Below, piece after piece: positions 1,779 to 25,496 of a DNA stretch of 35,388 bases. The stretch lies in NCBI GenBank assembly GCA_015063625.1, contig SVTT01000018.1, forward strand, positions 1 to 35,388, read 5' to 3'. This DNA is from Oscillospiraceae bacterium (lineage in GTDB: Bacteria > Bacillota > Clostridia > Oscillospirales > CAG-272). The number at the start of each line of letters is the position of its first letter. The stretch's first letter is position 1. Made by a program: the position numbers and the translations under genes. The notes beneath the pieces were generated by a model. That model was given only the letters and a program-made list of their open reading frames with translations, was not told the origin of the DNA and did not search any database.

Positions 1779-1825
1779 CTTGCCGGGGGTCTTGTTTCGT
1801 GTCGAAAAGAGAAAAAGGAGGATCT

Positions 1826-8037: not shown

Positions 8038-8790
8038 ATGATGCTGAAGAAGTGGGAAAAGCTTCCGCCTGAGCTGCAAAACGAGGCTGTCAGAAAATAT
8101 TACGATATCCTTCGCAAAAAACGGTTCAGCTTGCTTTTAAAACGGATTTTTGATATCGTGGCGTCCCTGCTGATGCTGGTTCTTCTTTCTCCCTTGTTTT
8201 TGATCCTGGCAATTGCCATCAAGCTGGATAGCAGGGGACCTGTATTTTACCGACAGGTCAGAGTAACCCGCTACAACAGACGCTTCCGAATTTTCAAATT
8301 CCGTTCCATGGTGCAGAATGCGGATCGCGGCTCGCAGGTGACGGTCAGCGGAGATTCCCGCGTGACGCGTGTGGGACGATTTGTGCGGAAATGTCGGCTG
8401 GATGAGATCAGTCAGCTGATCGATGTTCTTCGCGGCACGATGACATTTGTGGGCACGCGACCGGAGGTGCCCAAATATACCGAGCAGTATACTGCGGAAA
8501 TGATGGCAACCCTCTTGCTTCCCGCAGGCATTACAAGTCTTGCAAGTATTTATTACAAGGACGAGGCAGAGCTGCTTGACGGGGCGACGGATACCGATCA
8601 TGTATATGTGGAGAAGGTGTTACCTGCAAAAATGTATTATAACCTGAGGGCGATCGAGCAGTTTGGCTTTTGGCGGGATATTAAGGTCATGCTGATGACC
8701 GTGCTTGCCGTGCTGGGCAAAAAATATCAGGGTGATTATGTGGCTGAGGGTAATGCGGAGGAATCGGAGGAAACCGTGAATGCAGTTTGA
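8038..8790 (+). CDS. Initiating phosphoglycosyl transferase (bacterial sugar transferase, PglC/WcaJ C-terminal type)
   Basis: A 250-residue small phosphoglycosyl transferase that moves a sugar-1-phosphate from a UDP-sugar to undecaprenyl phosphate at the cytosolic membrane face. It has the hydrophobic re-entrant helix at about 38-62, FKFRSM at 86-91, the catalytic Asp-Glu pair in LDEISQ at 121-126, and FVGTRPE at 137-143. It lacks the four-helix N-terminal part of WbaP/WcaJ and so is of the short PglC type, with an extra N-terminal 30 residues. Start is ATG 8038 or the adjacent ATG 8041; GAGAGAG at 8021-8027 is upstream. Confidence 0.92.
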   Translation: MMLKKWEKLPPELQNEAVRKYYDILRKKRFSLLLKRIFDIVASLLMLVLLSPLFLILAIAIKLDSRGPVFYRQVRVTRYNRRFRIFKFRSMVQNADRGSQVTVSGDSRVTRVGRFVRKCRLDEISQLIDVLRGTMTFVGTRPEVPKYTEQYTAEMMATLLLPAGITSLASIYYKDEAELLDGATDTDHVYVEKVLPAKMYYNLRAIEQFGFWRDIKVMLMTVLAVLGKKYQGDYVAEGNAEESEETVNAV

Positions 8791-9604
8791 TTTTTCTGTT
8801 TTGATGTCGCTTTATTTCAAGGAAGCCCCACAGAATTTTCGGGAATGCATGAATAGCATTTTGTCGCAGACCGTACTGCCCGATGAGATCGTGATCGTCA
8901 AGGACGGTCCGTTAACGACAGAGCTCGAGAGCGTTCTGGCGGAATATGTTGAAAGGGCCCCCGACCTTTATCGGATCGTGCCGCTTGAAACGAACAGAGG
9001 GCTTGGCCTTGCGCTTGCGGAGGGGATCCGGCATTGTACCAACGAGCTGGTTGCCCGAATGGATACCGACGATATTGCCCGAAGCGACCGCTTTGAAAAA
9101 CAGCTTGCGGAGTTTAAAAAGGATCCCGAGCTTGATATATGCGGCAGCCACATCGTGGAGTTTGAGGGTGCGGTTGAAAATGTGGTCGCACACAGAAAGG
9201 TCCCCTTGGAGGACGCTGAGATCAAGCGCTACCAAAAGCGAAGAGATAGCTTTAATCACATGACGGTGATGTACAAAAGATCCATGGTCTTGAAGGCGGG
9301 AAACTATCAGTCCTGTCTGCTGATGGAGGATACACTGTTGTGGGTCCATATGATCATGGCGGGCGCGAAATGCAAAAACATTGATGATACACTGGTATAC
9401 GCCAGAATCGGGTCCGGCATGTTTGAACGTCGCGGAGGCTTTTCGTATTACAGGAAGTATAAGCAGGGAAGAAAAAGAGTCCGCCAAACGGGGTATATTG
9501 GATTTTTTGATTATTACTATACTTTGCTGGTGCAGCTTTGTGTTGCGATGATGCCGAACAAGCTTCGCGGCTTGATTTTTAAGAAGATGCTGCACGGTGA
9601 GTAG
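8780..9604 (+). CDS. Glycosyltransferase family 2
   Basis: A 274-residue GT-A inverting glycosyltransferase. The N-terminal FSVLMSLYFKEAP, the nucleotide-binding DEIVIVKDGP and the metal-binding ARMDTDDIA (Asp95, Asp97, Asp98) mark the domain; the last 60 residues are aromatic and basic and may touch the membrane. It overlaps the phosphoglycosyl transferase by 11 bases, with GGAGG about 8 bases before its ATG. Its place directly after the initiating enzyme suggests that it adds the second sugar. Donor sugar cannot be told from sequence. Confidence 0.9.
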   Translation: MQFDFSVLMSLYFKEAPQNFRECMNSILSQTVLPDEIVIVKDGPLTTELESVLAEYVERAPDLYRIVPLETNRGLGLALAEGIRHCTNELVARMDTDDIARSDRFEKQLAEFKKDPELDICGSHIVEFEGAVENVVAHRKVPLEDAEIKRYQKRRDSFNHMTVMYKRSMVLKAGNYQSCLLMEDTLLWVHMIMAGAKCKNIDDTLVYARIGSGMFERRGGFSYYRKYKQGRKRVRQTGYIGFFDYYYTLLVQLCVAMMPNKLRGLIFKKMLHGE

Positions 9605-9615
9605 GAGGTGGATCT

Positions 9616-10713
9616 GTGAAAGCGGGGATTATTACACATTATGACGTTCATAATCACGGAGCACATTTGCAGCTTTATGCGCTGGCTCGTCAATTAGGGC
9701 AGCTGGGATATGATGCCCATGCCCTTCAATACAAGAAGAATTATGATTTTTTGGCGAGTGGAGCCGAGGCGAAATACAGCATTTCTTTGCGTTCGATCCC
9801 GATCTATATCAAATATTTGATGCAGCACGGCATCAAGCGGACGCTCTACAACATCAAAAAGAAAAAAATGCTCGAAGCCTTTCGCCGTAATCAGCGATTG
9901 GTCGGGGAGTATTATTCCAAAGCGAACGATCTCGATGTTGCGGTCATCGGCAGTGATGAGATCTTCAGCATCGAAACAGGCTTGAATCCTTGGTTTTTCG
10001 GCATGGGCGTTCCCTGTCGGCACGTGATCTCGTATGCAGCCAGCTTTGGGCCGACGACGCTTGATTTCATCAAGGAGCACCATGCAGAGGAATTTGTGTC
10101 GGCGGGGCTTAAGAGGATCGATCAAATATCGGTGCGGGATCAGAATTCCGCGGCGGTGGTTGAGCACTACAAGGGCGCGCGGCCGCCGATCGTTTGCGAT
10201 CCCGTGATCCTATACGATTTTTCGAAGGAGCGCGTGAAGCATCAAAATTGTGCGCCTGCCAAGACGAAATACTGTATCGTTTACTCGTATGATAACCATA
10301 TGAACGATCCCGAAACGGTCAAGGCGATCAAACAATACGCCAAGCTTCACCGCATGAAAATATATAGCGTGGGATACCATCATAAGTGGTGTGACAGGAA
10401 TATTCATGCATCGCCGCTGGAGCTGTTTGATTGGTTTGAAAAGGCACAGCTCGTGTTTACCGACACCTTCCACGGCACTGTGCTTTCCCTGGTGACGGGC
10501 TCACAGTTCTTTGCAAAGATCGGCACAAATCAAAACAAGATGATGTATCTTCTGACACAGTTCGGCGTGCAGTCCCAATTGGTATCCTCCTTTAACGAGG
10601 TGAATGGGGAAGCCGAGCGACGTATCGACTACGATGTGGTCAATGAGCGCATTCGTGAGGTGAAGCGTGCTTCGTTGGATTATTTGAAAAGGGCTTTGGG
10701 GATCGTTGAATGA
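9616..10713 (+). CDS. Polysaccharide pyruvyl transferase family protein
   Basis: A 365-residue member of the CsaB/WcaK-like family (polysaccharide pyruvyl transferase domain). These enzymes move pyruvate from phosphoenolpyruvate onto a sugar as a ketal. Seen: the N-terminal GIITHYDVHNHGAHLQLYAL, VAVIGSDEIFS, the YAASFG segment and the VFTDTFHGTVLSLVTG motif near residues 280-295. The start is GTG at 9616, set by the strong AGGAGGTG at 9603-9610. It overlaps the following FrhB-like gene by 4 bases (ATGA), which suggests tight coupling. Many proteins in this subgroup have not been tested; some may not be pyruvyl transferases. Confidence 0.85.
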   Translation: MKAGIITHYDVHNHGAHLQLYALARQLGQLGYDAHALQYKKNYDFLASGAEAKYSISLRSIPIYIKYLMQHGIKRTLYNIKKKKMLEAFRRNQRLVGEYYSKANDLDVAVIGSDEIFSIETGLNPWFFGMGVPCRHVISYAASFGPTTLDFIKEHHAEEFVSAGLKRIDQISVRDQNSAAVVEHYKGARPPIVCDPVILYDFSKERVKHQNCAPAKTKYCIVYSYDNHMNDPETVKAIKQYAKLHRMKIYSVGYHHKWCDRNIHASPLELFDWFEKAQLVFTDTFHGTVLSLVTGSQFFAKIGTNQNKMMYLLTQFGVQSQLVSSFNEVNGEAERRIDYDVVNERIREVKRASLDYLKRALGIVE

Positions 10714-11906
10714 GAGAGAATATCGAACAATGCTCCGCATGCGGCGCATGCGTGCAGAAATGCCCGCGAAAATGTATTGAGCTCAAAGCGGATGAAAACG
10801 GATTTCTATATCCGGTGATCGATCGTGATGCGTGCATTGGATGTGATCTTTGCGATGCGGTGTGCCATCTTGAAGTCCCTCGCAGGGAACGATATGGGGG
10901 GCAAAGGGCATATGCGGCTGTCCACCGCGATAAAAGCGTATTGCGCGCGTCGACCAGCGGAGGGGCATTTACGGCGATCGCGGAGGTGATTTTTTCACTT
11001 GGCGGCGTTGTTTACGGATGCGCCTATGAGAAGCCCCTGAAGGCGGTGCATATCAGAATTGAGGACCGTAAGGATCTTGAGCGATTGAACGGATCAAAGT
11101 ATGTGCAGAGCGAGATCGGTTCTGCTTATTCGGAGGTCGCAAGGGATCTTGCGGCAGATCGTTGGGTCCTTTTTTCGGGAACGCCCTGCCAGATCGCAGG
11201 TCTTTACGCCTTTTTGAACGGCAAGCAATATGACAGATTGATCACAGTGGACATCATTTGTCACGGCGTACCGAGCCATGCATATTTCAACAAATTCTTA
11301 AAGTGGTATGAGGATCGGAACGGCGTTGACGTGAGTAGCTTCGATTTTCGTTCCAAAAAGAATGCGGGCTGGAGCTGTGCAGGCATTTGCGAGGGAACAA
11401 GGCGAAAAGACGGGCGCCCTTACCGGAAGAAGATCTTTCATTTTGAACACTATTATTACAGTTATTTTCTGTCTGCCGATATCTATCGGGAAGGCTGCTA
11501 TGATTGCAAATATGCTAATCTGGACCGCGTTGGCGATTATACCTTGGGTGATCTTTGGGGCGCCGAAGGCTTGGGGCTGCCCTTTTCGGTGGCAGACGGT
11601 TGCTCACTGGTTCTGGTGAATACCGAGAAGGCGAGCGAGATGCTCGGCAAGATCGATATGGAGCTTTTTGAGATCCCGATCGAGGCTGCCGTTGCTCATA
11701 ACGAGCAGCTGCGAACGCCGAGTCAACGGTCCCACAAAAGGGAAGAGCTTCTTGACGAGTTCAGAAAATGCTCGGCGGAAGAGACCCAGAAGAATTATTT
11801 GAAGAAGAATCGGGCGAATATCATAAAGGCGAGGCTGAAGTACATGGTCCCTGCCGGAATGCGGCATCGACTGCTGAAATTGCGCTATCAGATCAAGCGC
11901 CCTTGA
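10710..11906 (+). CDS. FrhB/FdhB-like iron-sulfur protein (coenzyme F420 hydrogenase beta-subunit family)
   Basis: A 398-residue redox protein. The N-terminus holds two 4Fe-4S binding clusters: Cys8, Cys11, Cys14, Cys18 and Cys42, Cys45, Cys48, Cys52. The rest matches the FrhB/FdhB N- and C-terminal domains, with the flavin-site-like STSGGAFTAIAE, LFSGTPCQIAGL and a later cysteine-rich REGCYDCKYANLDRVGDYTLGD region that could hold a further metal centre. F420 is not expected in Clostridia, so the electron carrier is probably a flavin or ferredoxin. Such genes recur beside pyruvyl transferase-like genes in polysaccharide clusters; their role there is not defined. It overlaps the upstream gene by 4 bases. 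Confidence 0.85.
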   Translation: MRENIEQCSACGACVQKCPRKCIELKADENGFLYPVIDRDACIGCDLCDAVCHLEVPRRERYGGQRAYAAVHRDKSVLRASTSGGAFTAIAEVIFSLGGVVYGCAYEKPLKAVHIRIEDRKDLERLNGSKYVQSEIGSAYSEVARDLAADRWVLFSGTPCQIAGLYAFLNGKQYDRLITVDIICHGVPSHAYFNKFLKWYEDRNGVDVSSFDFRSKKNAGWSCAGICEGTRRKDGRPYRKKIFHFEHYYYSYFLSADIYREGCYDCKYANLDRVGDYTLGDLWGAEGLGLPFSVADGCSLVLVNTEKASEMLGKIDMELFEIPIEAAVAHNEQLRTPSQRSHKREELLDEFRKCSAEETQKNYLKKNRANIIKARLKYMVPAGMRHRLLKLRYQIKRP

Positions 11907-11921
11907 AAAAAGGAGAATGTC

Positions 11922-12923
11922 ATGAGCGAACAAAGCAAGCACCCGTTGATCAGCGTGATCGTTCCCGTATACAATGTCGAAAAATATTTGGAGCGCTGTG
12001 TGAAATCGATCCTTTTGCAGACGTATGACCGCTTGGAGATCATTTTGGTGAACGATGGCTCAAAGGACGGTAGCGGCAAGCTTTGTGATGAGCTGGCAAA
12101 AGGTGATCCGAGGATCGTTGTTCTTCACAAGGAAAACGGAGGAGCCAGCTCGGCAAGAAATGCAGGACTTGATCTCGCCCACGGGGAGTACATCGGGTTT
12201 GTTGACAGTGATGATTGGATCGCCCCCGATATGTACGAGTATTGCCTGCGGGCGATCGATGCTCATGATGCACAGGTCGTACAGACCGAATGTGCGTTGG
12301 TGCGCAGTGAAGCCGAGGCTGTCAAGCAGGAGCCCGAGCAGGTAGAGGTCTATGCGGGCAAGGATATTTTGCAATACTACATGCTGTCTACCACGAGAAG
12401 CGGCGGATACTCGGTTTGCCGTTGCTTGTTTGCAAGAGAACTTCTTATGGGCATCCGTTTCCGCGAGGGAAAGACCTGTGAGGATATCGATTATAAGTAT
12501 AAGGCGCTGGCAAGGGCCGAAAAAATGGTGGTCACCAATTTGAAAAAGTATTTTTACTTTCAATCGGTGGGCAGTGTCAGTACGTCGGGGCTGCGGGCGA
12601 AAAATTTCGACCTGTATGATGCGGCAGACGAGCTTTGCAAGCTGACAAAGGATGAACCGTACGGTGATATCAGAAGATTGGGTGAGATCAAAAAAGCAAG
12701 GACAGCCCTTGCGATGCTGTCCCAGATGGCATATTTTGGAATATCCGATCCGACGCTGGATAAAAAAACCATGGTTAAGCGATTTACGAAGGAGCATCGG
12801 CAAAATCTGAAGCTTCTGCTTGGTGCGCCGATTCCCGTCAGTCGAAAATTGCTGTCGGTGATGTTTGCGATCAACTATCAAATGACCGAGCTTGCCGTAA
12901 AAATCGCGAAAAAGATTTTTTGA
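11922..12923 (+). CDS. Glycosyltransferase family 2
   Basis: A 333-residue GT-A enzyme with a textbook N-terminus: ISVIVPVYNVEKYL, EIILVNDGSKDGS, KENGGASSARNAGLD and the metal-binding VDSDDW at 94-99. The C-terminal 120 residues are family-variable. AAAAGGAG lies about 7 bases before the ATG. It probably adds one sugar of the repeat unit at the cytosolic face; linkage and donor are unknown. Its stop overlaps the frame of the next gene. Confidence 0.93.
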   Translation: MSEQSKHPLISVIVPVYNVEKYLERCVKSILLQTYDRLEIILVNDGSKDGSGKLCDELAKGDPRIVVLHKENGGASSARNAGLDLAHGEYIGFVDSDDWIAPDMYEYCLRAIDAHDAQVVQTECALVRSEAEAVKQEPEQVEVYAGKDILQYYMLSTTRSGGYSVCRCLFARELLMGIRFREGKTCEDIDYKYKALARAEKMVVTNLKKYFYFQSVGSVSTSGLRAKNFDLYDAADELCKLTKDEPYGDIRRLGEIKKARTALAMLSQMAYFGISDPTLDKKTMVKRFTKEHRQNLKLLLGAPIPVSRKLLSVMFAINYQMTELAVKIAKKIF

Positions 12924-12955
12924 GCATCGCCGGTGACGAAGGAGTGGAGAGCCCT

Positions 12956-14170
12956 ATGCTGTTTTTGACAAATTTTTACTATCCCGGACCGCAGGCGACC
13001 GGCGTGTGCATTCATCAGCTGGCAAAGGAGATCACTCACACAGGCAAGCAGGCGTACGTGGTCTGCAACAATCAAGGCTCCGAGCCGAAAAGCGAGTGCT
13101 TGGACGGCATTCACGTGCAAAGAGTCGATATGCCACGCTATCGGTATTGGAATTACCCTGTTGTAACCTCCCCTCGCGGGTTGAAGCAAAGGGCGCTCTC
13201 TTTTTTGGGAAAAATGATTGGATTTTCCAAAAAGCTTTTTCATTTTCGCAAATATCCCTTGAGGGACGGTGTCTTGACTCGGCGTTACGTGAGGACCGTT
13301 TCAGCGTTGATCGAGCAACACGGCATACGCACGGTGGTTGCGACCTTTAATCCCGTTGAATGCATCGAGGCGGGGGCGATCTTAAAGAAAAAATATCCGC
13401 AGGTGACCTTTGTCTATTATTCCCTGGATACGCTGTCTAACGAAAAGGGAAGCGGCTTGTTGCCCGTTCGGTTCAGAGAACGGCAGGGCGTGAAAATGGA
13501 GCAACGCTATTTTGCGATATATGATCGGGTCCTCTTAATGAACTGTCATCGGACACATTATTCACAGGCTGCATTTTTGCGTTATGCGGATAAGATCTGC
13601 TATGCGGATTTTCCTCTGTTCTCCCCGATCGAGGGAGCGGGTGGGGCGAGTAAGGACCGCAATAGCATCGTATACACGGGATATCTGTATCGAGGTATCA
13701 GAAATCCGGCTCCGGTGCTTCGGATGCTTTCGCCCGTTTTGGGCGAATATACGGTTCATTTTTACGGATCGGGCGATTGCGATGATATCCTTTCGGGATT
13801 TGAAGATCGGTTTCCCGGTCGTATATGCCGACATGGACAGGTATCGCATGATCGGGTGATCCGGGCGATCCTTTCGGCAGATGTATTACTGAGCATCGGA
13901 AATGCAGGAACCGATATGGCTCCGTCCAAGATCTATGAGTATATGTCGACCGGCAAATCCATTCTTCATTTTTATGCAGACGAGCAAGACCCTTGCCTAC
14001 CGGTATTTGAAAAGTATGGGAATGCTCTTTGCGTGAAGATCGGAGATGAGGATGCCGAGCAGAGCATCAGGGACTTTTTGGAGCAAAGCCACGAAATGCA
14101 GGTGGATGGTATCCGCGAGCTGTTTAAAACGTCGTTGCCGTCCTATACAGTCGACCTCATCGGACGGTGA
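12956..14170 (+). CDS. Glycosyltransferase, GT-B fold (family 4-like)
   Basis: A 404-residue GT-B enzyme. The N-terminal LFLTNFYYPGPQATGVCIHQLAKEI is typical of family 4 acceptors, and the C-terminal half has the donor-site sequence IVYTGYLYRGIRNPAP and APSKIYEYMSTGKSI with the conserved Glu. The ATG at 12956 is chosen because GGAG stands 6 bases ahead; an in-frame TTG at 12920 would overlap the previous gene and has no ribosome site. A retaining mechanism is expected for family 4. It is one of four extending glycosyltransferases in the operon. Confidence 0.85.
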   Translation: MLFLTNFYYPGPQATGVCIHQLAKEITHTGKQAYVVCNNQGSEPKSECLDGIHVQRVDMPRYRYWNYPVVTSPRGLKQRALSFLGKMIGFSKKLFHFRKYPLRDGVLTRRYVRTVSALIEQHGIRTVVATFNPVECIEAGAILKKKYPQVTFVYYSLDTLSNEKGSGLLPVRFRERQGVKMEQRYFAIYDRVLLMNCHRTHYSQAAFLRYADKICYADFPLFSPIEGAGGASKDRNSIVYTGYLYRGIRNPAPVLRMLSPVLGEYTVHFYGSGDCDDILSGFEDRFPGRICRHGQVSHDRVIRAILSADVLLSIGNAGTDMAPSKIYEYMSTGKSILHFYADEQDPCLPVFEKYGNALCVKIGDEDAEQSIRDFLEQSHEMQVDGIRELFKTSLPSYTVDLIGR

Positions 14171-15487: not shown

Positions 15488-16154
15488 AAAAATGTGGTAT
15501 CGCCTGAAATATCTTGGTAAGGGCGTGGTCCTTTCCCGCGGAAGCAATGTAGGAGGCTTTTCCACGACCTTTGAGGGCGGCAATCGGATCGGTGAGCAAA
15601 CCACCTTTACCGGCAGCATCGGATACGGAAGCTACATCGGACGAAATTGCTATATCACCGCCAAGATCGGGCGATATTGCTCGATTGCGGGGCATGTGAG
15701 AACCGCTATCGGAAGGCACCCGACCGATACGTTTGTTTCTACTCATCCCGCGTTCTTTTCGGTTGCCGAGCAAAGTGGCTTTACCTATGTGAAGCAAGGT
15801 AAATTTGAGGAATTGCGTGCGGCGGACGAAGTGGGAAACAGTGTTGTGATCGGCAACGATGTCTGGATCGGTGAAGGGGCGATCCTTCTTGACGGCGTAA
15901 CGGTTGGCGACGGTGCGGTGATTGCCGCGGGCGCGGTGGTCGTTAAGAATGTACCGCCTTATACGGTTGTGGGCGGCGTGCCGGCGAAGGAGATCAAAAA
16001 AAGATTTTCGGACGCCGAAATTGAATTTCTGCTGCGTACCGAGTGGTGGAACAGACCTAAGGATTGGATCTGCCGCCACGCCGACCTTTTTGAGGATATC
16101 GGTCGGTTGATGAACGCCTTGAACAGCGAGACCTCGGAGGAAGATCATGAGTAG
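15471..16154 (+). CDS. Hexapeptide-repeat acyltransferase (CatB/VatD-like)
   Basis: A left-handed beta-helix acyltransferase, 227 residues from TTG at 15471. Repeats run from about residue 20 to 75 and 125 to 165 (for example [17 protein letters not shown] and [25 protein letters not shown]), with a loop carrying STHPAF, whose histidine is the expected catalytic base of xenobiotic acetyltransferase-type enzymes. It probably O- or N-acetylates a sugar of the repeat unit from acetyl-CoA. Start is uncertain: TTG 15471 has AGGGTGGG about 8 bases upstream and overlaps wzy by 17 bases; ATG 15492 (220 residues) has a poor site. Confidence 0.85.
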
Positions 16155-17310
16155 AGCAAATACGTGTATCGTTGCCGTGGGATATAACCGCCCGGATGCC
16201 ATGGGCAGATTGTTGAACAGCCTTCAAAGGGCGGATTATCAAGGCGACCGTGTTGATCTTGTCGTCAGTATTGATAAAGGAGAGAGACAGGCAGAGATCG
16301 TTGAAATTGCAGAGCGCTTTGGGTGGGAGCACGGCGAAAAGACCGTGCGGGCTTTTCCGCAGCGTCAGGGACTGAAGAGCCATATTTTGCAATGTGGCGA
16401 CTATGCCTTTGAATATGGGGCTGTTGTAGTCCTTGAGGATGATATCACGGTATCGGAATCCTTTTACAATTACGTGAGGCAAGCAGTTTCCTTTTACAGT
16501 AATGATCCAAGGATCGGCGGTATTTCGCTGTATAAGCATTGCATGAACGTTGGCGTGCAGCATTTTTTTGAACCGCAATATAACGGTTATGATGCGTTTT
16601 TGATGCAATACGCCCAATCCTGGGGTGAATGTTGGACAACCAAGATGTGGTCCGGCTTCAGGGAATGGATCGCAGACAAGAGTGAGGATTACTTTGATTC
16701 GGGCAGGGTCGATCGCGATCTGTTTCCCGATAATATCCTTTCTTGGGGAAAGCATTCCTGGATGAAATTTTTTATGGCGTATTTGGTGGAAAAGGATCTT
16801 TATTTCGTTTATCCGCATCATGCGCTTTCCACCAATAACGCCGAGGTCGGACAGCACAACAGCATTGCTGTCAATGACTATCAGGTTGCATTGTCCTTGG
16901 GAAACATCACATATCGCTTCCCCGCCTTTGCCGAGGCGGTCAAGTACGATATCTTTTTTGAGCGAGTGGATCTCAGCGTTCCTCGGTATGCCGATCGACG
17001 TGTGATCCTGGATCTTTACGGCAACAAAAAGAAATTTTCCGATGGTGACGTGTTGGTTTCATCGACGGCACGCCCCTATGCGGTTCTTGCCACGTGGAAG
17101 CTGAAGTACCGCCCACAGGAGGTGAACTGCCTTTATCCGGAGGAGGGCACGGGACTGTTTGTGTATGATCTTCACACACCTGCGAGAAGGCCCGATGCCT
17201 TCAACCGTAATATCAGAACCAAGTACGACATCAGAGCGATCCCCGGAAAAGAGATCCTGCAAATGGGCTTATATGCATTGAAAACAAAAATTTTGAAAAA
17301 GCGCAGATAG
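16147..17310 (+). CDS. Glycosyltransferase, GT-A fold (GnT-I-like EDD motif)
   Basis: A 387-residue protein. The N-terminus [21 protein letters not shown] and [16 protein letters not shown] (Glu97, Asp98, Asp99) indicate a GT-A nucleotide-sugar enzyme; the EDD triplet in place of DxD recalls GT13 (N-acetylglucosaminyltransferase I) relatives. [14 protein letters not shown] segment near 159-171 and [10 protein letters not shown] later in the chain may shape the acceptor site. It overlaps the acyltransferase by 8 bases, with GGAGG about 7 bases before its ATG. The donor is unknown. The C-terminal 100 residues have no assignment. Confidence 0.78.
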
Positions 17311-17375: not shown

Positions 17376-18716
17376 ATGAATGTTTGTCATAAACTGAAGG
17401 AATCCTTGAACAATAAAAGCGTCAGAAATTCGGGATGGATCATCGGGCAACAGATCTTTCAAATGCTTCTCCAGCTGATCGTCGGTGTCCTGACTGCCAG
17501 ATATTTGGGCCCCGCCAATTACGGAGCGTTGAATTATACGGCATCCTTTGTTACGTTTTTTGTTTCGATCACTACGCTCGGTATGGAGGGCGTTGTCATT
17601 AAAAAGCTGATCGATCATCCCGATGACGAGGGCTTATATTTGGGAAGTGCCATGGGGCTTCGGTTCCTTGCCTCCATGCTGTCCATCGTATCGGTCTCGC
17701 TCCTTGTGTTTGTATTGAATCCCTCCGAGCCGATCAAGCTGACCTTGGTTTTTTTGCAGTCCTTTCAGTTATCCTTCAAGGCGATCGGGATTTTGGATTC
17801 TTGGTTTCAAAGGCATTTGAAATCAAAATATGTATCGATCGGAAAGATGCTGGCTTGCGTGGTCGTTTCGGCATATAAGGTGTTTTTGCTGGTCACTGCT
17901 AAAAGCATTGTATGGTTTGCCCTCTCAAGCTCCTTGACCGAGTGTGTGATCGCGCTTGTGGAGTGCTATTTTTACAAGAGACAGAGAGGTCAGCGGTTAA
18001 GATTCAGGCTGTCGGTGGGCTCAGGGATCCTGAAGGAGAGCTACCATTTCATCATATCGGGTCTGATGGTCGCGATTTACAGCCAGATGGACAGGATCAT
18101 GATCGGAGAAATGATGACCGACGTGGACGTGGGACTGTATACGACGGCAACAGCGGTCTGCGGATTGTGGATCTTTGTTCCGATGGCGCTCATCAGCTCC
18201 TTTCAGCCTGCGGTAATGGAGCTGAAGCGGAACGGAAATGATGAAAGATATCTTCTGCGCTTAAAGCAGCTTTACAGTGCGGTGATCTGGCTTTGTGTCA
18301 TTGTTTCCGGAGGAATCACTCTCTTGGCAAAGCCAATTATTTATATTCTTTACGGTACGCAGTATCTGGGTGCTGTGGGAACGCTTCGTATCGCCATTTG
18401 GAGTGAGACCTTTGCGATGATCGGATCGGTGCGAGGGGTATGGATCCTTTGCGAAAAAAAGAATAAATACGTGAAGTATTATTTGATGATGGGTGCCGCA
18501 GTTAACCTGGTCTTAAATGCGCTTTTGATACCGCGCGCAGGAATCAACGGTGCTGCGTTTGCTACCTTGGTCACACAGGCAGTAACAAGCCTGCTGGCGC
18601 CGGCGCTGTTTAAGGAAACACGCGCGCATGTGCCGATCGTTTTGGATGCCGCCTTGTTGGGGTGGTATTGGAGAAAAAATAAAAGCGCTTCGAAGGAGGA
18701 AGACCATGAGCCTTAA
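17376..18716 (+). CDS. wzx: Polysaccharide flippase (Wzx, MOP superfamily)
   Basis: A 446-residue integral membrane protein with about twelve hydrophobic helices, matching the polysaccharide biosynthesis exporter family. The N-terminal GWIIGQQIFQMLLQLIVGVL and ARYLGPANYGALNY are typical of the family. It should flip undecaprenyl-diphosphate-linked repeat units across the membrane for Wzy. A weak ribosome site (AAGGGAG at 17355-17361) stands rather far, 14 bases, from the ATG. It is the only flippase in the window, consistent with a single Wzx/Wzy-dependent pathway. Confidence 0.9.
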   Translation: MNVCHKLKESLNNKSVRNSGWIIGQQIFQMLLQLIVGVLTARYLGPANYGALNYTASFVTFFVSITTLGMEGVVIKKLIDHPDDEGLYLGSAMGLRFLASMLSIVSVSLLVFVLNPSEPIKLTLVFLQSFQLSFKAIGILDSWFQRHLKSKYVSIGKMLACVVVSAYKVFLLVTAKSIVWFALSSSLTECVIALVECYFYKRQRGQRLRFRLSVGSGILKESYHFIISGLMVAIYSQMDRIMIGEMMTDVDVGLYTTATAVCGLWIFVPMALISSFQPAVMELKRNGNDERYLLRLKQLYSAVIWLCVIVSGGITLLAKPIIYILYGTQYLGAVGTLRIAIWSETFAMIGSVRGVWILCEKKNKYVKYYLMMGAAVNLVLNALLIPRAGINGAAFATLVTQAVTSLLAPALFKETRAHVPIVLDAALLGWYWRKNKSASKEEDHEP

Positions 18717-19629
18717 AACCGCCGTCAAGAAAAATCGAATGCTTGTAGCGGCATACCGCAAGTGCCGTGCCGCAAAGTATAACCTCGCAACCAGGATTTC
18801 TCCGAAATTGAATACTGCCATGCGCTACAAGAAGGCATTTGGGAGGAAATGGGACCCTCAAAACCCCAAGACCTTGAACGATAAGGTTCTTTGGCTGAAA
18901 TTCAACACCTATTGGAACAATCCGCTGGTCAGGCAATGCGCAGATAAGTACCGTGTCAGAGAATACGTGGAAAGGATCGGCTGCAAGGAGCTGCTCAACG
19001 AATTGATCGCAGTTTACGAAAGGGTAGAGGATATTCGTTTTGATGAGCTGCCGGATTCCTTTGCGCTGAAGCTGAATGTAGGATGCGGCTATAATCTGAT
19101 CGTGCCTGACAAATCAAAGCTTGATGTGGAGCAGGCAAAGCGTCAGATCAAGAAATGGATGAAGGAAAAATACCACTTGGCGTTTTCTGAAATGCAATAT
19201 AAGGGTGTAAAGCCCTACATATTGGTAGAGAAATACTTATCCTCCGAAAAGGGAGGACTTCCAGAGGACTATAAGTTTTATTGTTTTAACGGAGAGGCCT
19301 CTTACGTCATGGTTTGCACGGATCGTCAAGAGGGAGGAAAGCAAGCACGTTTTTGGTACTATAATTCCGATTGGGAGATGCAAATGCTGACCTCGGATGC
19401 CTTGAGGTATGGAAAAGAGGCAACCATTGAAAAACCGAAGGGGATCGACGAGGCATTTGAATATGCTCGCAAGCTATCAAAGGGCTTCCCGTTTGTTAGG
19501 GTTGATTTCTACATTGTAGACGGAAAAGTCATTTTCGGTGAAATGACCTTCACACCGAGTGGCGGATTTGATAATGAAAGACTGAAGGAAACCGATGAGC
19601 TGCTTGGCTCGTTTGTCAAGCTCGGTTGA
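18706..19629 (+). CDS. ATP-grasp ligase, TupA-like
   Basis: A 307-residue ATP-grasp protein of the TupA-like family, named after a teichuronopeptide biosynthesis protein in alkaliphilic Bacillus. Seen: KLNVGCGYNLIV (nucleotide-binding region), the YLSSEKGGLPEDYKFYCFNGE hinge and the metal/ATP site FVRVDFYIVDGKVIFGEMTFTPSGG near the C-terminus with the conserved Asp and Glu. ATP-grasp enzymes join a carboxylate to an amine through an acyl phosphate, so an amide bond between a uronic acid and an amino compound is the natural guess. The ATG at 18706 has AAGGAGGA about 7 bases ahead and overlaps wzx by 11 bases. Confidence 0.82.
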   Translation: MSLKTAVKKNRMLVAAYRKCRAAKYNLATRISPKLNTAMRYKKAFGRKWDPQNPKTLNDKVLWLKFNTYWNNPLVRQCADKYRVREYVERIGCKELLNELIAVYERVEDIRFDELPDSFALKLNVGCGYNLIVPDKSKLDVEQAKRQIKKWMKEKYHLAFSEMQYKGVKPYILVEKYLSSEKGGLPEDYKFYCFNGEASYVMVCTDRQEGGKQARFWYYNSDWEMQMLTSDALRYGKEATIEKPKGIDEAFEYARKLSKGFPFVRVDFYIVDGKVIFGEMTFTPSGGFDNERLKETDELLGSFVKLG

Positions 19630-19647
19630 TTCAGCAGGAGGAAACGG

Positions 19648-20718
19648 ATGAAAATTACAATTGCAGGAATAGGAAATGCCGGAACGACCATTGGGGCTGA
19701 TTTAACACGTAAGGGACATGAGGTAACCTTGTTAAAGACCTCAAACAGATTGCACAATGAAAATTATGAAGCGTTGCTGAGAAACAGGACCATCATGGTG
19801 GATGACCTTGATTCCTCCTATCAGGTCACGGTTGCTGATGTTACAGATGACGTTGAGAGGGCAGTGAGCCATGCAGATCTGATCATTATTTATATACAGA
19901 CCAACTACCACAGAGCCCTGATCGAAAAAATGGCACCCTTTTTGCACGATGGGCAAACCGTGTTGATCGAGCCCGGGTATCTCTCAACCTGTTATTTTAT
20001 GGATCGGGTCAGCTGTGATCTGACCATTATTGAAGCCGAGAGCTCTCCTATCGATTGCCGTATCGTTGCTCCCGGACACGTCAAGGTTCTTTTCAAAAAC
20101 GTTTTGAATCCCTTTGGCGTTTATCCCCTTTCTCATAAGGAGCAGGCTGAGAAAATCTTGAGGGAACTGCAATATCCGTTTGCTTTTACAAGCAATGTGA
20201 TCGAAGCGGCATTGCACAACCCCAATTTGATCGTGCATACCATCGGTGCGATCTTCAGTATTCCCAGAATTGAGTATACAAACGGTGAGTATTGGATGTA
20301 CCGGGAGGTTTTTACCCCACATGTCTGGAATGTTGTTGAAGCCTTGGATCAGGAGAAAATGAGCGTTCTGGAAAAATTGGGCTGTAAGCGCTTGCCTTAT
20401 GTAGAGGCTTGCAAATTGAGGAATTCCTTGGATAAGGATGAGGATGCTCTTGCCGTGTTCAGGGCATACGCCGATCACAGCTCGCCCAAAGGCCCCAATA
20501 TTCCCGATTCCAGATATATCACAGAGGACGTGCCGGAGGGTCTTGTTATGCTGGAGTCCTTGGGTAAGATTTTGGGGATTCCAACACCTACAACGACGGG
20601 GTTGATCAACTGCGCGTCTGCCGCACTGAAGACTGATTTCAGAGAGAATGGAAGAACGGTAGAGGCGTTGGGCGAAAGCAATATCAAAGCGATTATCAAA
20701 GAAGGCCTTGGTCAGTAA
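19648..20718 (+). CDS. NAD/NADP octopine/nopaline dehydrogenase family protein (opine dehydrogenase-like)
   Basis: A 356-residue two-domain oxidoreductase. The Rossmann N-terminus reads ITIAGIGNAGTTIGADLTRKGHEV (GxGNxG). The C-terminal helical domain contains HNPNLIVH (His190 to His197), where the catalytic histidine lies in octopine dehydrogenase, and RYITEDVPEGLVMLESLGKILGIPTPTT, the family's second signature. Opine dehydrogenases reductively condense the amino group of an amino acid with a 2-keto acid to an N-(1-carboxyalkyl) amino acid. It starts 18 bases after the ATP-grasp gene, with AGGAGG before the ATG, so the two enzymes probably act together. Amino- and keto-acid substrates cannot be told. 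Confidence 0.87.
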   Translation: MKITIAGIGNAGTTIGADLTRKGHEVTLLKTSNRLHNENYEALLRNRTIMVDDLDSSYQVTVADVTDDVERAVSHADLIIIYIQTNYHRALIEKMAPFLHDGQTVLIEPGYLSTCYFMDRVSCDLTIIEAESSPIDCRIVAPGHVKVLFKNVLNPFGVYPLSHKEQAEKILRELQYPFAFTSNVIEAALHNPNLIVHTIGAIFSIPRIEYTNGEYWMYREVFTPHVWNVVEALDQEKMSVLEKLGCKRLPYVEACKLRNSLDKDEDALAVFRAYADHSSPKGPNIPDSRYITEDVPEGLVMLESLGKILGIPTPTTTGLINCASAALKTDFRENGRTVEALGESNIKAIIKEGLGQ

Positions 20719-20813: not shown

Positions 20814-21860
20814 ATGGGACTGTTTACTAACAAAACCCTCATGATCACCGGTGGTACCGGAAGCTTTGGCAATGCGGTTCTGAACCGTTTTTTGCGCACT
20901 GATATCGGGGAGATCCGCATTTTCTCCCGCGATGAAAAGAAGCAGGATGACATGCGTCATGAATTTCAGGCTAAAATGCCCGACGTGGCGGAGAAGATCA
21001 AGTTCTACATCGGTGACGTGCGCGACATTGCATCGGTGAGAAATGCTATGCACGGTGTGGATTATATTTTTCATGCGGCGGCACTCAAGCAGGTGCCCTC
21101 CTGTGAGTTTTTCCCTATTGAGGCAGTCAAGACCAACGTGCTCGGCACCGAGAACGTACTGACCGCTGCCATCGAGGCAGGCGTGAAAAACGTGGTTTGC
21201 CTGTCTACCGACAAGGCGGCATATCCCGTCAACGCTATGGGTACCTCCAAGGCGATGATGGAGAAGGTCATCGTGGCAAAATCCCGTACCGTATCGCCCG
21301 ATAAGACCAAGATCTGCTGCACGCGCTACGGCAATGTGATGTGCTCGCGCGGCTCGGTCATTCCGCTTTGGATCGACCAGATCCGCAACGGCAATCCCAT
21401 CACCATCACCGATGGCTCGATGACCCGCTTTATCATGTCGCTTGACGAGGCGGTGGATCTGGTGCTCTTTGCCTTTGAGCACGGTGAGAGTGGTGATATT
21501 CTGGTTCAGAAGGCACCTGCCTGCACCATTCAGACTCAGGCAGAGGCAGTGTGTGAGCTCTTTGGCGGCGACAAGAAGAACATCAGGGTCATCGGCATCC
21601 GTCATGGTGAGAAGATGTACGAAACACTGCTGACCAACGAGGAATGTGCCAACGCCATTGATATGGGCAATTTCTACCGCGTGCCCTCGGACAAGCGCGG
21701 TCTGAACTACGACAAATATTTCAACAAGGGCGATGCCGAGCGCAATACGCTGACCGAGTTCAACTCCAACAATACCCGGCTTCTTACGGTCGAGCAGACC
21801 AAGGAGAAGATCGCGGCTCTTGCATATATCAAGGAAGAGCTTGCGAAAATGGAGAAGTGA
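20814..21860 (+). CDS. capE: CapE: UDP-GlcNAc 4,6-dehydratase/5-epimerase (UDP-L-FucNAc pathway)
   Basis: A 348-residue short-chain dehydrogenase (FlaA1/CapE/WbjB group) that converts UDP-GlcNAc to UDP-2-acetamido-2,6-dideoxy-L-arabino-4-hexulose, the first step to UDP-N-acetyl-L-fucosamine. Seen: TGGTGSFGNAV for NADP, HAAALKQVPSCEFFP, and the unusual catalytic MGTSKAMMEK, where Met replaces the Tyr of most SDR enzymes, as in CapE/FlaA1. Followed directly by capF and capG in the order known from Staphylococcus aureus type 5/8 capsule clusters. Codon use is rich in C/G third positions, like RNase J and unlike the genes upstream. Confidence 0.94.
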   Translation: MGLFTNKTLMITGGTGSFGNAVLNRFLRTDIGEIRIFSRDEKKQDDMRHEFQAKMPDVAEKIKFYIGDVRDIASVRNAMHGVDYIFHAAALKQVPSCEFFPIEAVKTNVLGTENVLTAAIEAGVKNVVCLSTDKAAYPVNAMGTSKAMMEKVIVAKSRTVSPDKTKICCTRYGNVMCSRGSVIPLWIDQIRNGNPITITDGSMTRFIMSLDEAVDLVLFAFEHGESGDILVQKAPACTIQTQAEAVCELFGGDKKNIRVIGIRHGEKMYETLLTNEECANAIDMGNFYRVPSDKRGLNYDKYFNKGDAERNTLTEFNSNNTRLLTVEQTKEKIAALAYIKEELAKMEK

Positions 21861-21862
21861 GC

Positions 21863-23062
21863 ATGAAGATATTGATCACGGGCGCGGCGGGCTTTGTGGG
21901 GAAAAATCTTGCCGCGGCACTCAGAAACATCAGGGACGGAAGGGATCGGACACACCCCACGCTTTCGATCGGGGAGCTTTACCTTTACGATATCGATTCT
22001 CCCGCGGGGCTGCTTGATGAGGCATGCCGCGAGGCGGACTTTGTTTTCAATCTTGCGGGCGTCAACCGCCCCAAGGATCCCGAGGAATTTATGCAGGGCA
22101 ATTTCGGCTTTGCCTCTACACTGCTTGACACCCTGAAGAAGCATGGCAATACCTGCCCGGTCATGATCTCCTCGTCGATCCAGGCAACCTGCATCGGGCG
22201 CTATGACAGCGATTACGGAAGGAGCAAAAGGGCGGGAGAGGAGCTTGTCTTTTCCTATGCCGAGGAAACGGGTGCCAAGGTGTTGGTCTACCGCTTCCCC
22301 AATCTGTTCGGCAAGTGGTGCAGACCGAACTATAACAGCGCGGTTGCCACGTTTTGCAATAACATCGCCAACGATCTCCCCATCACTGTGAGTGATCCTG
22401 CCATTGAATTGGAGCTTCTTTACATCGATGATCTGATCGATGAGATGCTGGCAGCGCTGAAGGGGGCAGAGCACCGTTGTGAATTTGACGGCATCAAGAC
22501 CGTGCTGACCGACGGCGGCAGATACTGTGCCGCGCCCGTGACGCACAAGGTCACCCTTGGTGAGATCGTTTCGTTGCTCGATTCCTTCAAGGCACAGCCC
22601 GACACGCTGACGATGCCCGAGATCCCTGCAAACAGCTTTGCCAAAAAGCTGTACAGCACCTACTTGTCCTATTTGCCCAAGGAGAAGATCTCCTTCCCCT
22701 TGAAGATGAACGTCGATGCGAGGGGCTCCTTTACCGAGCTGCTCCGCACCGAGAAGTGCGGGCAGTTTTCTGTGAATATCTCAAAGCCCGGCATTACAAA
22801 GGGACAGCATTGGCACCATACCAAATGGGAGTTTTTCATCGTTGTCAGCGGTCGGGGGCTGATCCAAATGCGAAGGATCGGCTCGGACGAGGTGCTGAGC
22901 TTTGAGGTCAGCGGTGAGAGGATCGAGGCGATCCACATGCTGCCCGGCTATACGCACAATATCATCAATCTTTCGGACACCGAGGATCTGGTGACCGTGA
23001 TGTGGGCAAACGAGTGCTTTGACCCCCAGAAGCCCGATACATTTTTTGAGGTGGTGGAATAA
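21863..23062 (+). CDS. capF: CapF: UDP-2-acetamido-2,6-dideoxy-hexulose epimerase/reductase
   Basis: A 399-residue bifunctional enzyme, second step of the UDP-L-FucNAc pathway. The N-terminal two-thirds is an NAD(P) Rossmann reductase (ILITGAAGFVGKNLA; FNLAGVNRPKDPEEF; SSSIQA and YGRSKRAGEE). The C-terminal part (about 275-399) is the cupin domain that does 3-epimerisation, with metal ligands in GQHWHHTKWEFF and PGYTHNI. GGAG stands about 9 bases before the ATG at 21863; an in-frame GTG at 21857 is less likely. It begins 2 bases after the capE stop. Confidence 0.94.
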   Translation: MKILITGAAGFVGKNLAAALRNIRDGRDRTHPTLSIGELYLYDIDSPAGLLDEACREADFVFNLAGVNRPKDPEEFMQGNFGFASTLLDTLKKHGNTCPVMISSSIQATCIGRYDSDYGRSKRAGEELVFSYAEETGAKVLVYRFPNLFGKWCRPNYNSAVATFCNNIANDLPITVSDPAIELELLYIDDLIDEMLAALKGAEHRCEFDGIKTVLTDGGRYCAAPVTHKVTLGEIVSLLDSFKAQPDTLTMPEIPANSFAKKLYSTYLSYLPKEKISFPLKMNVDARGSFTELLRTEKCGQFSVNISKPGITKGQHWHHTKWEFFIVVSGRGLIQMRRIGSDEVLSFEVSGERIEAIHMLPGYTHNIINLSDTEDLVTVMWANECFDPQKPDTFFEVVE

Positions 23063-24246
23063 TGGAAATCAAGCTTGACTATTCTGATGTCAAATTTCAG
23101 GATAACGGGAAGCTGAAGCTTCTGATCATCGTGGGTACTCGCCCCGAGATCATTCGCCTTGCCGCCGTGATCAACAAGTGCCGCCAATATTTCGATTGCA
23201 TACTGGCGCATACGGGGCAGAATTACGACTATAATCTCAACGGGGTCTTTTTCAAGGACCTCAAGCTTGCCGACCCGGAGGTCTATATGGACGCGGTGGG
23301 TGATGATCTCGGTGCTACCGTGGGTAATATCATCAATTGCTCCTATAAGCTGATGAACAGGATCAAGCCGGATGCTCTGCTTATTCTCGGTGATACCAAT
23401 TCCTGTCTTTCCGCGATCGCGGCAAAGCGCCTGCACATTCCGATCTTCCATATGGAGGCGGGCAACCGTTGCAAGGACGAATGTCTGCCCGAGGAAACCA
23501 ATCGCCGTATCGTGGACATCATCTCGGACGTGAATCTGGCATATTCCGAGCACGCGCGCCGCTATCTGCACGAGTGCGGTCTGCCCAAGGAGCGTACCTA
23601 TGTAACGGGTTCTCCCATGGCGGAGGTCCTGCATGCCAATCTTGCCGAGATCGAGGCGAGCGACGTTCATGCAAGGCTCGGGCTTGAGAAGGGAAAATAT
23701 ATTCTTCTCTCTGCACACAGGGAGGAGAATATCGATACCGAAAAGAATTTCCTGTCGCTCTTCGGCGCCATTAACAAAATGGCACAGAAGTACGATATGC
23801 CCATTCTTTATTCCTGCCACCCGAGAAGTCGCAAGCGCCTGGAGACAAGCGGCTTTCAGCTTGACCCCCGCGTGATCCGCAACGAGCCCCTCGGCTTCCA
23901 TGATTACAATTGCTTGCAGATGAACGCCTTTGCCGTGGTGTCCGATAGCGGAACACTGCCCGAGGAGAGCTCCTTCTTTACGTCGGTGGGGCATCCGTTC
24001 CCCGCGGTCTGCATCCGCACCTCTACCGAGCGTCCCGAGGCACTGGATAAGGCGTGCTTCATTCTTGCGGGGATTGATGAGAAAAGCCTGCTGCAGGCAG
24101 TGGAAACCGCCGTGGAGATGACCGAAAACGGCGACCACGGGATCCCCGTGCCCAACTATGTGGAGGAGAACGTTTCGACCAAGGTCGTTAAGATCATTCA
24201 GTCCTATACGGGTGTGGTCGATAAGATGGTTTGGAGAAAGTTTTAA
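23062..24246 (+). CDS. capG: CapG: UDP-N-acetyl-L-talosamine 2-epimerase (UDP-GlcNAc 2-epimerase family)
   Basis: A 394-residue GT-B-fold epimerase that completes UDP-L-FucNAc. Seen: [60 protein letters not shown] and the C-terminal [13 protein letters not shown]. These match the WecB/CapG/FnlC group. Its ATG overlaps the capF stop by one base (TAATG). Because capE and capF are next to it, the L-talosamine epimerase role is favoured over ordinary UDP-GlcNAc 2-epimerase. Confidence 0.93.
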
Positions 24247-24257
24247 GGAGGAGTGCT

Positions 24258-25496
24258 ATGAAGATCGCAGTTGCAGGAACCGGATATGTAGGGCTTTCCA
24301 TAGCAGTGCTGTTAGCACAGCACCATCGCGTGACAGCGGTGGATATCATCCCTGAGAAGGTGGAGATGATCAACCAAAGAAAATCCCCCATCCGAGATGA
24401 ATATATTGAAAAATACCTTGCCGAGAAGCAGCTTGATCTCGTTGCAACGCTCGATGCCGAGGCGGCGTATCGAGATGCTGATTATGTTGTGATTGCGGCG
24501 CCTACGAATTATGACAGCGTCAAAAAGTTTTTCAACACCTCTGCCGTAGAAGCAGTGATCGAGCTGGTGACAAAATGCAACCCTCGCGCTATAATGGTGA
24601 TCAAGTCAACCATTCCGGTGGGATATACAAAGTCGATCCGGGAAAAGACGGGAAATCGGAATATTTTATTCAGCCCTGAGTTTTTGCGGGAGAGTAAGGC
24701 CCTTTATGATAATCTCTATCCATCCAGAATCATTGTGGGTACGGATACCGATGATCCTGATCTTGTTGAGGCTGCGCGCACGTTTGCCGATCTTTTGAAG
24801 GAGGGTGCGATCAAAGAGGACATTGATACGCTGCTGATGGGCTACACTGAGGCAGAGGCGGTAAAGCTGTTTGCCAATACTTATCTTGCTTTGCGCGTAT
24901 CTTATTTTAACGAGCTTGATACCTATGCGGAGATGAAGGGGCTTGATACGCGGCAGATCATTAACGGTGTTTGTCTTGATCCGAGAATCGGAACGCATTA
25001 TAATAACCCCTCCTTCGGATACGGAGGATACTGCTTGCCAAAGGATACCAAGCAGCTGCTTGCCAATTATCAGGACGTTCCTCAGAACATGATGTCGGCA
25101 ATTGTGGAGTCAAACCGCACGCGCAAGGATTTTATTGCCGATCGCGTTCTTCGCATGGCAGGCTATTACGGCTATGAGGAGGACAACGATTACAGCAAAG
25201 CAAAGGAAAAGCCCCCTGTAATTGGTGTGTACCGTCTGACGATGAAATCCAATTCGGATAATTTCCGTCAGAGCAGCATCCAGGGCGTTATGAAGCGTAT
25301 TAAGGCAAAGGGCGCAAAGATCATCATTTACGAGCCCTCGCTTCAAGACGGCGAAAGCTTTTTTGGCAGCACGGTTGTAAACGATCTCGCAAAATTCAAA
25401 AAGAAATGCGATGTCATCATCGCCAATCGTTACCATACGGAGCTGGAGGATGTGCTTGATAAGGTATATACCAGAGATCTTTACTTCAGGGATTGA
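24258..25496 (+). CDS. ugd: UDP-glucose 6-dehydrogenase
   Basis: A 412-residue NAD-dependent enzyme oxidising UDP-glucose (or a related UDP-hexose) to the uronic acid. Seen: GTGYVG at 7-12, [18 protein letters not shown], the catalytic Lys213 and Asn217 in [11 protein letters not shown], and Cys259 in [14 protein letters not shown]. Slightly longer than E. coli Ugd (388). It starts 11 bases after capG with AAGGAGGAG before the ATG at 24258. UDP-glucuronate from this enzyme would supply a carboxylate for the TupA-like ligase. Base use returns to the more AT-rich style of the front of the operon. Confidence 0.93.

Follow-up and report, generated by a model that had tools for sequence, protein, structure and literature searches.

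A TupA-like ATP-grasp ligase gene paired with an opine-dehydrogenase-family gene: a putative opine-decoration module in a polysaccharide operon of an Oscillospiraceae bacterium

The gene pair

The contig SVTT01000018.1 of an Oscillospiraceae bacterium (assembly GCA_015063625.1; GTDB order Oscillospirales, CAG-272) was analysed over its positions 1 to 35,388, and we call this whole stretch the window. It contains a polysaccharide operon in which a gene for a TupA-like ATP-grasp ligase is directly followed by a gene for an oxidoreductase of the opine dehydrogenase (ODH) family. An earlier note on the window had drawn attention to these two genes as a possible module for decorating a capsule with opines.

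18706..19629, + strand: TupA-like ATP-grasp carboxylate-amine ligase, 307 residues; PF14305 (ATPgrasp_TupA), E 3.9e-47, residues 61-304
19648..20718, + strand: ODH-family oxidoreductase, 356 residues; PF02317 (Octopine_DH), E 1.5e-39, plus an N-terminal Rossmann-type domain

The ligase gene starts with the ATG at 18706 behind the ribosome site AAGGAGG and its stop ends at 19629. The ODH gene starts with the ATG at 19648, has AGGAGG as ribosome site upstream and ends with its stop at 20718. Both genes lie on the + strand, spaced by 18 bases, and the 3' end of the preceding flippase gene wzx (17376-18716) overlaps the start of the ligase gene by 11 bases. The pair and its spacing, as described in the earlier note, are thus borne out by the coordinates of the open reading frames, the ribosome sites and the Pfam matches. 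The whole assembly (1.76 Mb, 93.66% complete) holds one match to PF02317 and one to PF14305.

The dehydrogenase

The protein scores 135.8 bits against PF02317 (cut-off 30) and its N-terminal domain is of the ApbA/G3P-dehydrogenase type. Its closest solved relative is 1bg6, the N-(1-D-carboxylethyl)-L-norvaline dehydrogenase of Arthrobacter (ArODH), which has the same two-domain fold and is found by sequence (E 8e-29) as well as by fold (1.5e-24). In the structure model (predicted local distance difference test, pLDDT, 95) the next fold matches are octopine and staphylopine-type dehydrogenases; ketopantoate reductases and D-mandelate dehydrogenase are also among the matches. The earlier note had called for a structure prediction of the pocket. 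An opine-dehydrogenase fold is indeed predicted, but the two enzymes share only about 23% identity and the pocket is not that of ArODH.

Arg289 of the RYxxED motif is invariant in all 81 ODH sequences of this subfamily (81/81) and corresponds to Arg324 of octopine dehydrogenase, which we take to bind the keto acid. Equally invariant (81/81) are His197 and Asp294, which align with His202 and Asp297 of ArODH; a catalytic His-Asp dyad has been described for the ODH family (PMC10787698; the PMC articles are cited here and below from excerpts of their text). Ala111 of ArODH is replaced by Tyr111 in 81/81 members, Trp258 by Cys255 (Cys in 79/81) and Glu261 by Arg258 (81/81), the alignment being weak around 255-258. 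Positive charge is thereby added by Arg258 (81/81), and also by Lys281 (62/81). The pair Arg111/Gly198, connected with a preference for Asp (PMC10787698), is absent, since Tyr111 and Asn193 are found in 81/81 sequences. As the positions 111, 255 and 258 differ from ArODH and the dyad is kept, the enzyme has likely retained the type of reaction and likely acts on a different substrate. At the cofactor site Lys30-Thr31-Ser32 takes the place of Asp34-Ile35-Asp36 of the NADH enzyme ArODH. This could point to NADPH as cofactor, but the Arg named as a sign of NADPH in the excerpt (PMC10787698) is absent.

The ligase

The structure model of the ligase (pLDDT 91.6) resembles the ATP-grasp ligases Ddl, LysX/ArgX and RimK. 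The residues K81, K122, R265, D267 and E279 are invariant in 21 aligned sequences. By its PF14305 score, which is above the cut-off, by its ATP-grasp fold and by its conserved Lys and acidic residues the protein is a member of the TupA-like family, whose name comes from TupA of Bacillus halodurans. We assume that K81, K122, D267 and E279 bind ATP and Mg, by analogy and not from a structure of the TupA-like family. A profile search for a solved relative returned only two matches (E 0.22 and 0.54), which we take as chance.

Co-occurrence in other genomes

We searched samples of 196 genomes from the own GTDB family, 394 from the order and 398 from the phylum. In the own family a PF02317 gene is present in 7/196 genomes and a PF14305 gene in 17/196, and the two stand next to each other in the genome of the window alone. 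The ODHs of this family other than that of the window are distant (24-30% identity for the four measured, G020, G057, G133 and G127) and none of their genes has a TupA-like gene beside it; G127 has both families on different contigs. The distant ODH gene of G057 (24% identity) is located 20 bases behind a gene for a DegT aminotransferase (L062 4565-6538, the same place as L003 29-2001). A sugar-transferase homologue follows 4 kb downstream and no TupA or PF14397 gene was found nearby, so that this ODH may work for a polysaccharide cluster that lacks these ligases.

The order and phylum samples contain three relatives of the window ODH at 53-57% identity; all other matches are at or below 38% (at or below 34% near full length). 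The ODH genes of G323 and G387 are directly adjoined by a gene for an ATP-grasp protein of the family PF14397, in G387 on either side of the ODH gene and within a polysaccharide cluster. Neither ATP-grasp family is found beside the ODH gene of G826 (contig L079).

With an alignment of the window ODH and these three relatives we retrieved 124 relatives from GTDB contigs and kept the best 80 (49-71% identity). ATP-grasp genes were labelled with profiles grown from Pfam-checked seeds and called adjacent when located within 200 bases of the ODH gene on the same strand. For the window, L069 and L134 Pfam agrees with the TupA label, and for L059, L060, L118, L131 and L134 with the PF14397 label. A TupA-like gene stands beside the ODH gene in 17/80 loci and a PF14397-type gene in 45/80; either family is adjacent in 50/80, both in 12/80 and neither in 30/80. 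The alignment and the PF14397 profile had been seeded from L061, L059 and L060, whose contigs, by their length, are L079, L098 and L121 in this set; leaving these three out gives 48/77 for either family. When only loci with 1.5 kb or more on each flank are counted, the figure is 43/65. As control we used loci of distant ODHs (23-34% identity, about 1.5 kb flank), in which the same profiles detect neither family (0/46). The difference between 50/80 and 0/46 (Fisher p 2.3e-14) is overstated by this figure, as the loci are related; moreover, the two sets of loci were drawn from separate collections, and the control loci reach only about 1.5 kb to each side, some of them being cut. A third ATP-grasp profile ('PylC', seeded from L060) had drifted, its match in L106 being a D-Ala-D-Ala ligase, and was dropped from all counts. 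It matched 6/46 control loci, and the control is weaker if these are counted.

The pairing of the TupA-like and ODH genes is not chance. The earlier note had named a lack of co-occurrence in other genomes as evidence that would speak against the module, and what we find is co-occurrence. Its 'clostridial' setting also fits, as the named ODH relatives are nearly all Bacillota. A wider point was not foreseen: this ODH subfamily pairs more often with PF14397 than with TupA-like ligases, and some loci have several ligases. In plasmid records the ODH has 287 matches, of which the 15 listed are all below 30% identity.

Phylogeny of the partners

The loci are related to each other and we therefore used trees to help judge whether the pairings are independent. 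Well-supported branches of the ODH tree force at least 8 changes of the TupA label. On the TupA tree the ligases adjacent to an ODH gene fall into three separate groups, namely that of the window, L069/L073/L119, which is mixed with ODH-free genes, and L137/L145/L148. The in-locus TupA copies of L106 and L136 are placed apart on this tree.

The ligase of the window belongs to a TupA clade of 13 rows (support 99/89), each of which comes from a locus that also has this ODH, 12 of them directly beside it and L140 elsewhere in the locus; except for the window ligase, all were collected by way of the ODH. The 52 TupA genes that were chosen regardless of ODH all fall outside this clade. They comprise 29 genes from the order (the best 29 of 45 TupA places, own locus apart), 20 from the phylum (fragments L199 and L200 left out) and 3 from plasmids. 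In the 398 phylum genomes the window ligase has no match above 45% identity (44% without one fragment), so that the phylum genes bear on the clade only indirectly. Among plasmids 143 records have a TupA-like match; the three inspected (two Pantoea, one Pseudomonas) are free of ODH and form the sister group of the clade. In the two Pantoea plasmids (L201 7775-9885 and L203 7721-9831) an oligosaccharide flippase and a TupA-like 'ATP-grasp fold amidoligase' form an ODH-free two-gene unit.

Judged from sequence identity the two partners of the window have not simply travelled together, because the nearest relative of the ODH is that of Ruminococcus flavefaciens Y1 (L069, 71%) and the nearest relative of the ligase is that of Cerasibacillus quisquiliarum (L107, 52%), the identity of the ligase to that of L069 being only 39%.

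The polysaccharide operon of the window

Apart from the pair the following features were recognised.

1799-3508: RNase J, upstream of the operon
6834-8036, + strand: DegT-type sugar aminotransferase; PF01041, E 1.9e-93
8038-8790, + strand: initiating bacterial sugar transferase; PF02397, E 2e-55
8780-9604, + strand: glycosyltransferase; PF00535
9616-10713, + strand: pyruvyl transferase; PF04230
10710-11906, + strand: FrhB-like Fe-S protein; PF04432
11922-12923, + strand: glycosyltransferase; PF00535
14192..15487, + strand: Wzy-type polymerase; TIGR04370, E 1.7e-28, 99.7 bits (cut-off 40)
17376..18716, + strand: Wzx-type flippase; PF01943, E 2e-24
20814-21860, + strand: FnlA-like protein (the three Fnl-like calls rest on TIGR04130, 519 bits, and NF047837, 348.8 bits, both below the curated cut-offs, and on PF02350, E 2.8e-75)
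21857-23062, + strand: FnlB-like protein (same evidence set)
23062-24246, + strand: FnlC-like protein (same evidence set)
24231..25496, + strand: UDP-glucose 6-dehydrogenase-like protein (Ugd); TIGR03026, 315.8 bits (cut-off 189.8); best match PRK15057, 581.3 bits (cut-off 757)

The flippase and the polymerase confirm the Wzx/Wzy context that had been claimed for the pair. The earlier note also has the operon make UDP-glucuronate; the Ugd-like protein is above the cut-off of TIGR03026, and its best match PRK15057 is below its own cut-off. From its sequence this protein is a possible source of a glucuronate acceptor for the ligase. The three Fnl-like genes (20814..24246) probably encode a pathway to UDP-N-acetyl-L-fucosamine, a name that we give from sequence. 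Two operon genes (12920-14170 and 16147-17310) have no Pfam family above the cut-off and perhaps encode divergent glycosyltransferases. The gene for the FrhB/FdhB-like Fe-S protein follows directly on the pyruvyl transferase gene inside the capsule operon (9616-11906). Downstream of the operon a nucleotidyltransferase-like gene is followed by Mn-catalase-like and ABC-transporter genes.

Where the pairs sit in other genomes

In C. quisquiliarum DSM 15825 (L107) the pair is located in a row of genes for an initiating transferase, a GT2-like protein, a Wzy-type polymerase, a Wzx-type flippase, TupA, ODH, Ugd and phosphoglucomutase. The order in R. flavefaciens Y1 (L069) is EpsG-type polymerase, TupA, ODH, a 504-residue protein without Pfam match, an epimerase and Ugd. 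In L106 and L071 Ugd-like and epimerase genes precede the ODH gene. In the ODH clade of the window (100/98) a Ugd-like gene is found in 4/6 rows, within the stretch covered. Over all loci it is found in 5/17 with an adjacent TupA-like gene, in 2/33 with PF14397 only and in 4/30 others. The proposed link of the pair to Ugd thus recurs in part, in R. flavefaciens Y1, Cerasibacillus and others, and most of the TupA-adjacent loci show no Ugd-like gene in the stretch covered. A DegT-like gene is as frequent as Ugd in this group (5/17). Profiles for FnlB-, FnlC-, FrhB-, pyruvyl-transferase- and nucleotidyltransferase-like genes gave 0 or 1 loci per group and hence no general partner; the pyruvyl-transferase profile is insensitive, as Pfam finds one such gene in L134. 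A gene for a CapA-like PGA_cap protein is present in 13/80 ODH loci, for example L073 11076-12212, hinting at a poly-amino-acid or peptide element.

A different arrangement is seen in the Lachnospiraceae locus L134 (4154-13149): two PF14397 genes, a pyruvyl transferase, two glycosyltransferases, TupA, ODH and again two PF14397 genes. By profile this gene order is also present in L123 and L133, and a similar one in L130, L135 and L144; the gut cassettes L130 and L144, which have TupA and ODH, also encode a sodium:solute symporter. In cassettes of the L134 type we recognised neither a flippase nor a polymerase among the scanned genes. The multi-ligase loci suggest a stepwise building of opine-containing side chains. 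In L131 (5789-8869) an open frame called at 1026 residues combines PF14397 ATP-grasp with BspA-type leucine-rich repeats and is located beside ODH and TupA.

Finally, ODH and PF14397 genes form units of two or three genes in L098 (10001-12227), L084 (9911-13315; two ODH genes flank one ATP-grasp gene), L096 (4134-6472), L099 (8861-11077) and L114 (8736-11098). No polysaccharide family was detected in the ten neighbours scanned of each unit, which include prolyl-tRNA synthetase, peptidases and transporters. Free opine amides are therefore possible products there.

Proposed mechanism and alternatives

We think it on balance probable, with modest confidence, that the pair is an opine-decoration module of the polysaccharide operon, which makes an opine and attaches it to the glycan through an amide, glucuronate being a possible site. 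From the gene identities, the intact catalytic residues and the recurrent physical pairing that we observe we infer the following chemistry. The ODH would condense a 2-keto acid with an amino acid at its amino group, and the imine would be reduced by NAD(P)H to an N-(1-carboxyalkyl) amino acid, the opine. Then the TupA-like ligase would activate a carboxylate as acyl phosphate and form an amide. The donor could be an opine or an opine with a second primary amine free, such as a lysine or ornithine opine, and the acceptor in the repeat unit would most likely be the C6 carboxylate of glucuronate supplied by the Ugd of the operon. In the simplest link the free amine of a diamino-acid opine would be joined to glucuronate, as in Providencia O14 (see below). 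The decorated repeat unit would be exported by Wzx and polymerised by Wzy. With such chemistry the polymer would be 'zwitterion-like', as the earlier note put it.

Several observations weigh against this proposal. TupA-like genes mostly occur without ODH, and no ODH gene was found near the 29 (order) and 20 (phylum) independently fetched TupA genes within about 1.5 kb flank. In the opposite direction, 30/80 ODH loci have no adjacent TupA-like or PF14397 gene, 6/30 of them being cut by the contig end within 600 bases, and some units of ODH and ATP-grasp genes sit among unrelated genes. With regard to the chemistry, a secondary amine is a poor nucleophile, so that attachment of a simple opine would have to go through a carboxylate or a different amine. 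With a Ugd-like gene in so few of the TupA-adjacent loci, glucuronate does not look like a general acceptor; it is a fair guess for the window and not a rule across the loci. Lastly, the ODH subfamily seems to have lost a conserved active-site Trp, and the formation of an opine is itself therefore not certain. Trp258 is the only Trp of ArODH after residue 190 in the aligned stretch, and an active-site Trp, whose position is not numbered in the excerpt, is reported as conserved in ODHs (PMC10787698).

The poor nucleophilicity is sidestepped if the amide is formed the other way round: the ligase would activate a carboxylate of the opine, and the amine would come from an amino sugar that DegT makes, in place of an amine coupled to glucuronate. 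The operon has a DegT aminotransferase gene (6834-8036), the distant ODH gene of G057 lies close behind such a gene, and alanopine is attached to Qui4N in Providencia alcalifaciens O35 (PMC10609480). We nevertheless consider this route unlikely, though it is the closest rival. The TupA-like domain Cj1438C, for which a reaction is published, uses the carboxylate of the sugar (PMC11800379), and it is a Ugd-like gene, not DegT, that adjoins the pair in L107 and is near the ODH gene in L069, L071 and L106.

The replaced Trp, together with Arg258 and Tyr111 in the pocket and a fold common to ketopantoate reductases and D-mandelate dehydrogenase, would also agree with an enzyme that forms no opine. 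It could act as a reductase on a 2-keto acid or some other carbonyl; the hydroxy acid so formed, or else an ordinary amino acid, would then be coupled by the ligase. We hold this to be rather improbable, given that nothing else matches nearly as well as PF02317 and 1bg6 and that neither the His-Asp dyad nor Arg289 of the RYxxED motif varies.

Stronger doubts apply to the idea of a free small-molecule product, an opine or its amide in the manner of a metallophore or osmolyte, for which the capsule operon is only the address. The units of ODH and PF14397 in L084, L096, L098, L099 and L114, with ten neighbours free of polysaccharide families, and the symporter of the gut cassettes L130 and L144 would agree with it, as would the opine zincophores, in which an ODH is paired with a nicotianamine-synthase-like enzyme (PMC7438024). 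In the window, L069, L073, L106 and L107, however, the ODH gene stands amid flippase, polymerase, capsule or glycosyltransferase genes, and for the window we regard a free product as quite improbable. That two unrelated enzymes without a common pathway were brought together in a shuffled cluster is the most improbable of all, for although capsule clusters often exchange genes and the pair is side by side in only 1/196 own-family genomes, the contrast of 50/80 with 0/46 and several separate pairings on both trees speak against it.

Beyond the opine-decoration module of the window we can only tentatively suggest, and with clear doubt, that this ODH subfamily and its ATP-grasp partners follow a general, hitherto undescribed biosynthetic logic in Bacillota. 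One to five ligases, TupA-like and PF14397-type, would build opine amides, which would become opine-capped or opine-peptide side chains of surface glycans and, in the small units outside glycan clusters, perhaps free opine amides.

If the proposal is true, the gene pair can serve as a genetic marker by which Bacillota with opine-decorated surface glycans are recognised, among them the cultured R. flavefaciens Y1 and C. quisquiliarum, and the surface chemistry of such Bacillota becomes partly predictable from sequence. The dehydrogenases and amide ligases would then also be of biocatalytic interest.

Comparison with known systems

Our searches of open-licence PMC papers brought up no account of a glycan cluster that combines an ODH with an ATP-grasp ligase, in agreement with the earlier note, which had not recognised the pair as described. 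A survey of amidoligases by Iyer and co-workers from 2009 may mention such neighbourhoods.

The closest precedent for the ligase is Cj1438C, the C-terminal domain of Cj1438 of Campylobacter jejuni, which likewise has a TupA-like ATP-grasp fold and is encoded in a capsule cluster. It is reported to amidate the C6 carboxylate of capsular glucuronate before chain growth (PMC11800379), and an amide at this carboxylate is our working model for the window, too. By analogy the window ligase may act on a uronate carboxylate of the glycan, for which the Ugd-like gene in the operon is circumstantial evidence; the role proposed in the earlier note, amide formation on a uronic acid carboxylate, is backed to this extent. 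Cj1438C differs in using (S)-serinol phosphate or ethanolamine phosphate and in being fused to a glycosyltransferase; the excerpt mentions no opine dehydrogenase (PMC11800379), and the likeness to the window is drawn from its published description. The tupA gene of B. halodurans is reported to take part in the synthesis of teichuronopeptide, an acidic polymer that consists of polyglutamate and polyglucuronate (PMC8153356). Here the difference is that glutamate is polymerised, and an opine is not mentioned in the text excerpted (PMC8153356).

The zincophore systems CntL/CntM for staphylopine and pseudopaline resemble the pair in combining an ODH of similar fold with a second joining enzyme. Their partner enzyme is nicotianamine-synthase-like, not ATP-grasp, and the product is a small molecule that scavenges zinc (PMC7438024). 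No partner of the zincophore type is located beside the window ODH, whose neighbours are the TupA-like ATP-grasp gene upstream and the FnlA-like gene downstream.

For the product the best parallels are O-antigens of Providencia. P. rustigianii O14 has an amide-linked N-(1-carboxyethyl) lysine derivative on galacturonic acid, and P. alcalifaciens O35 has the alanopine amide on Qui4N already mentioned (PMC10609480), so that amide-linked carboxyethyl amino acids do occur in Providencia O-antigens as the earlier note had stated. These Gram-negative O-antigens are known as structures, whereas the window is known from its genes alone. Opine residues in polysaccharides and amidation by TupA-like enzymes are both known, and what is new, as far as we found descriptions, is a gene module that joins the two.

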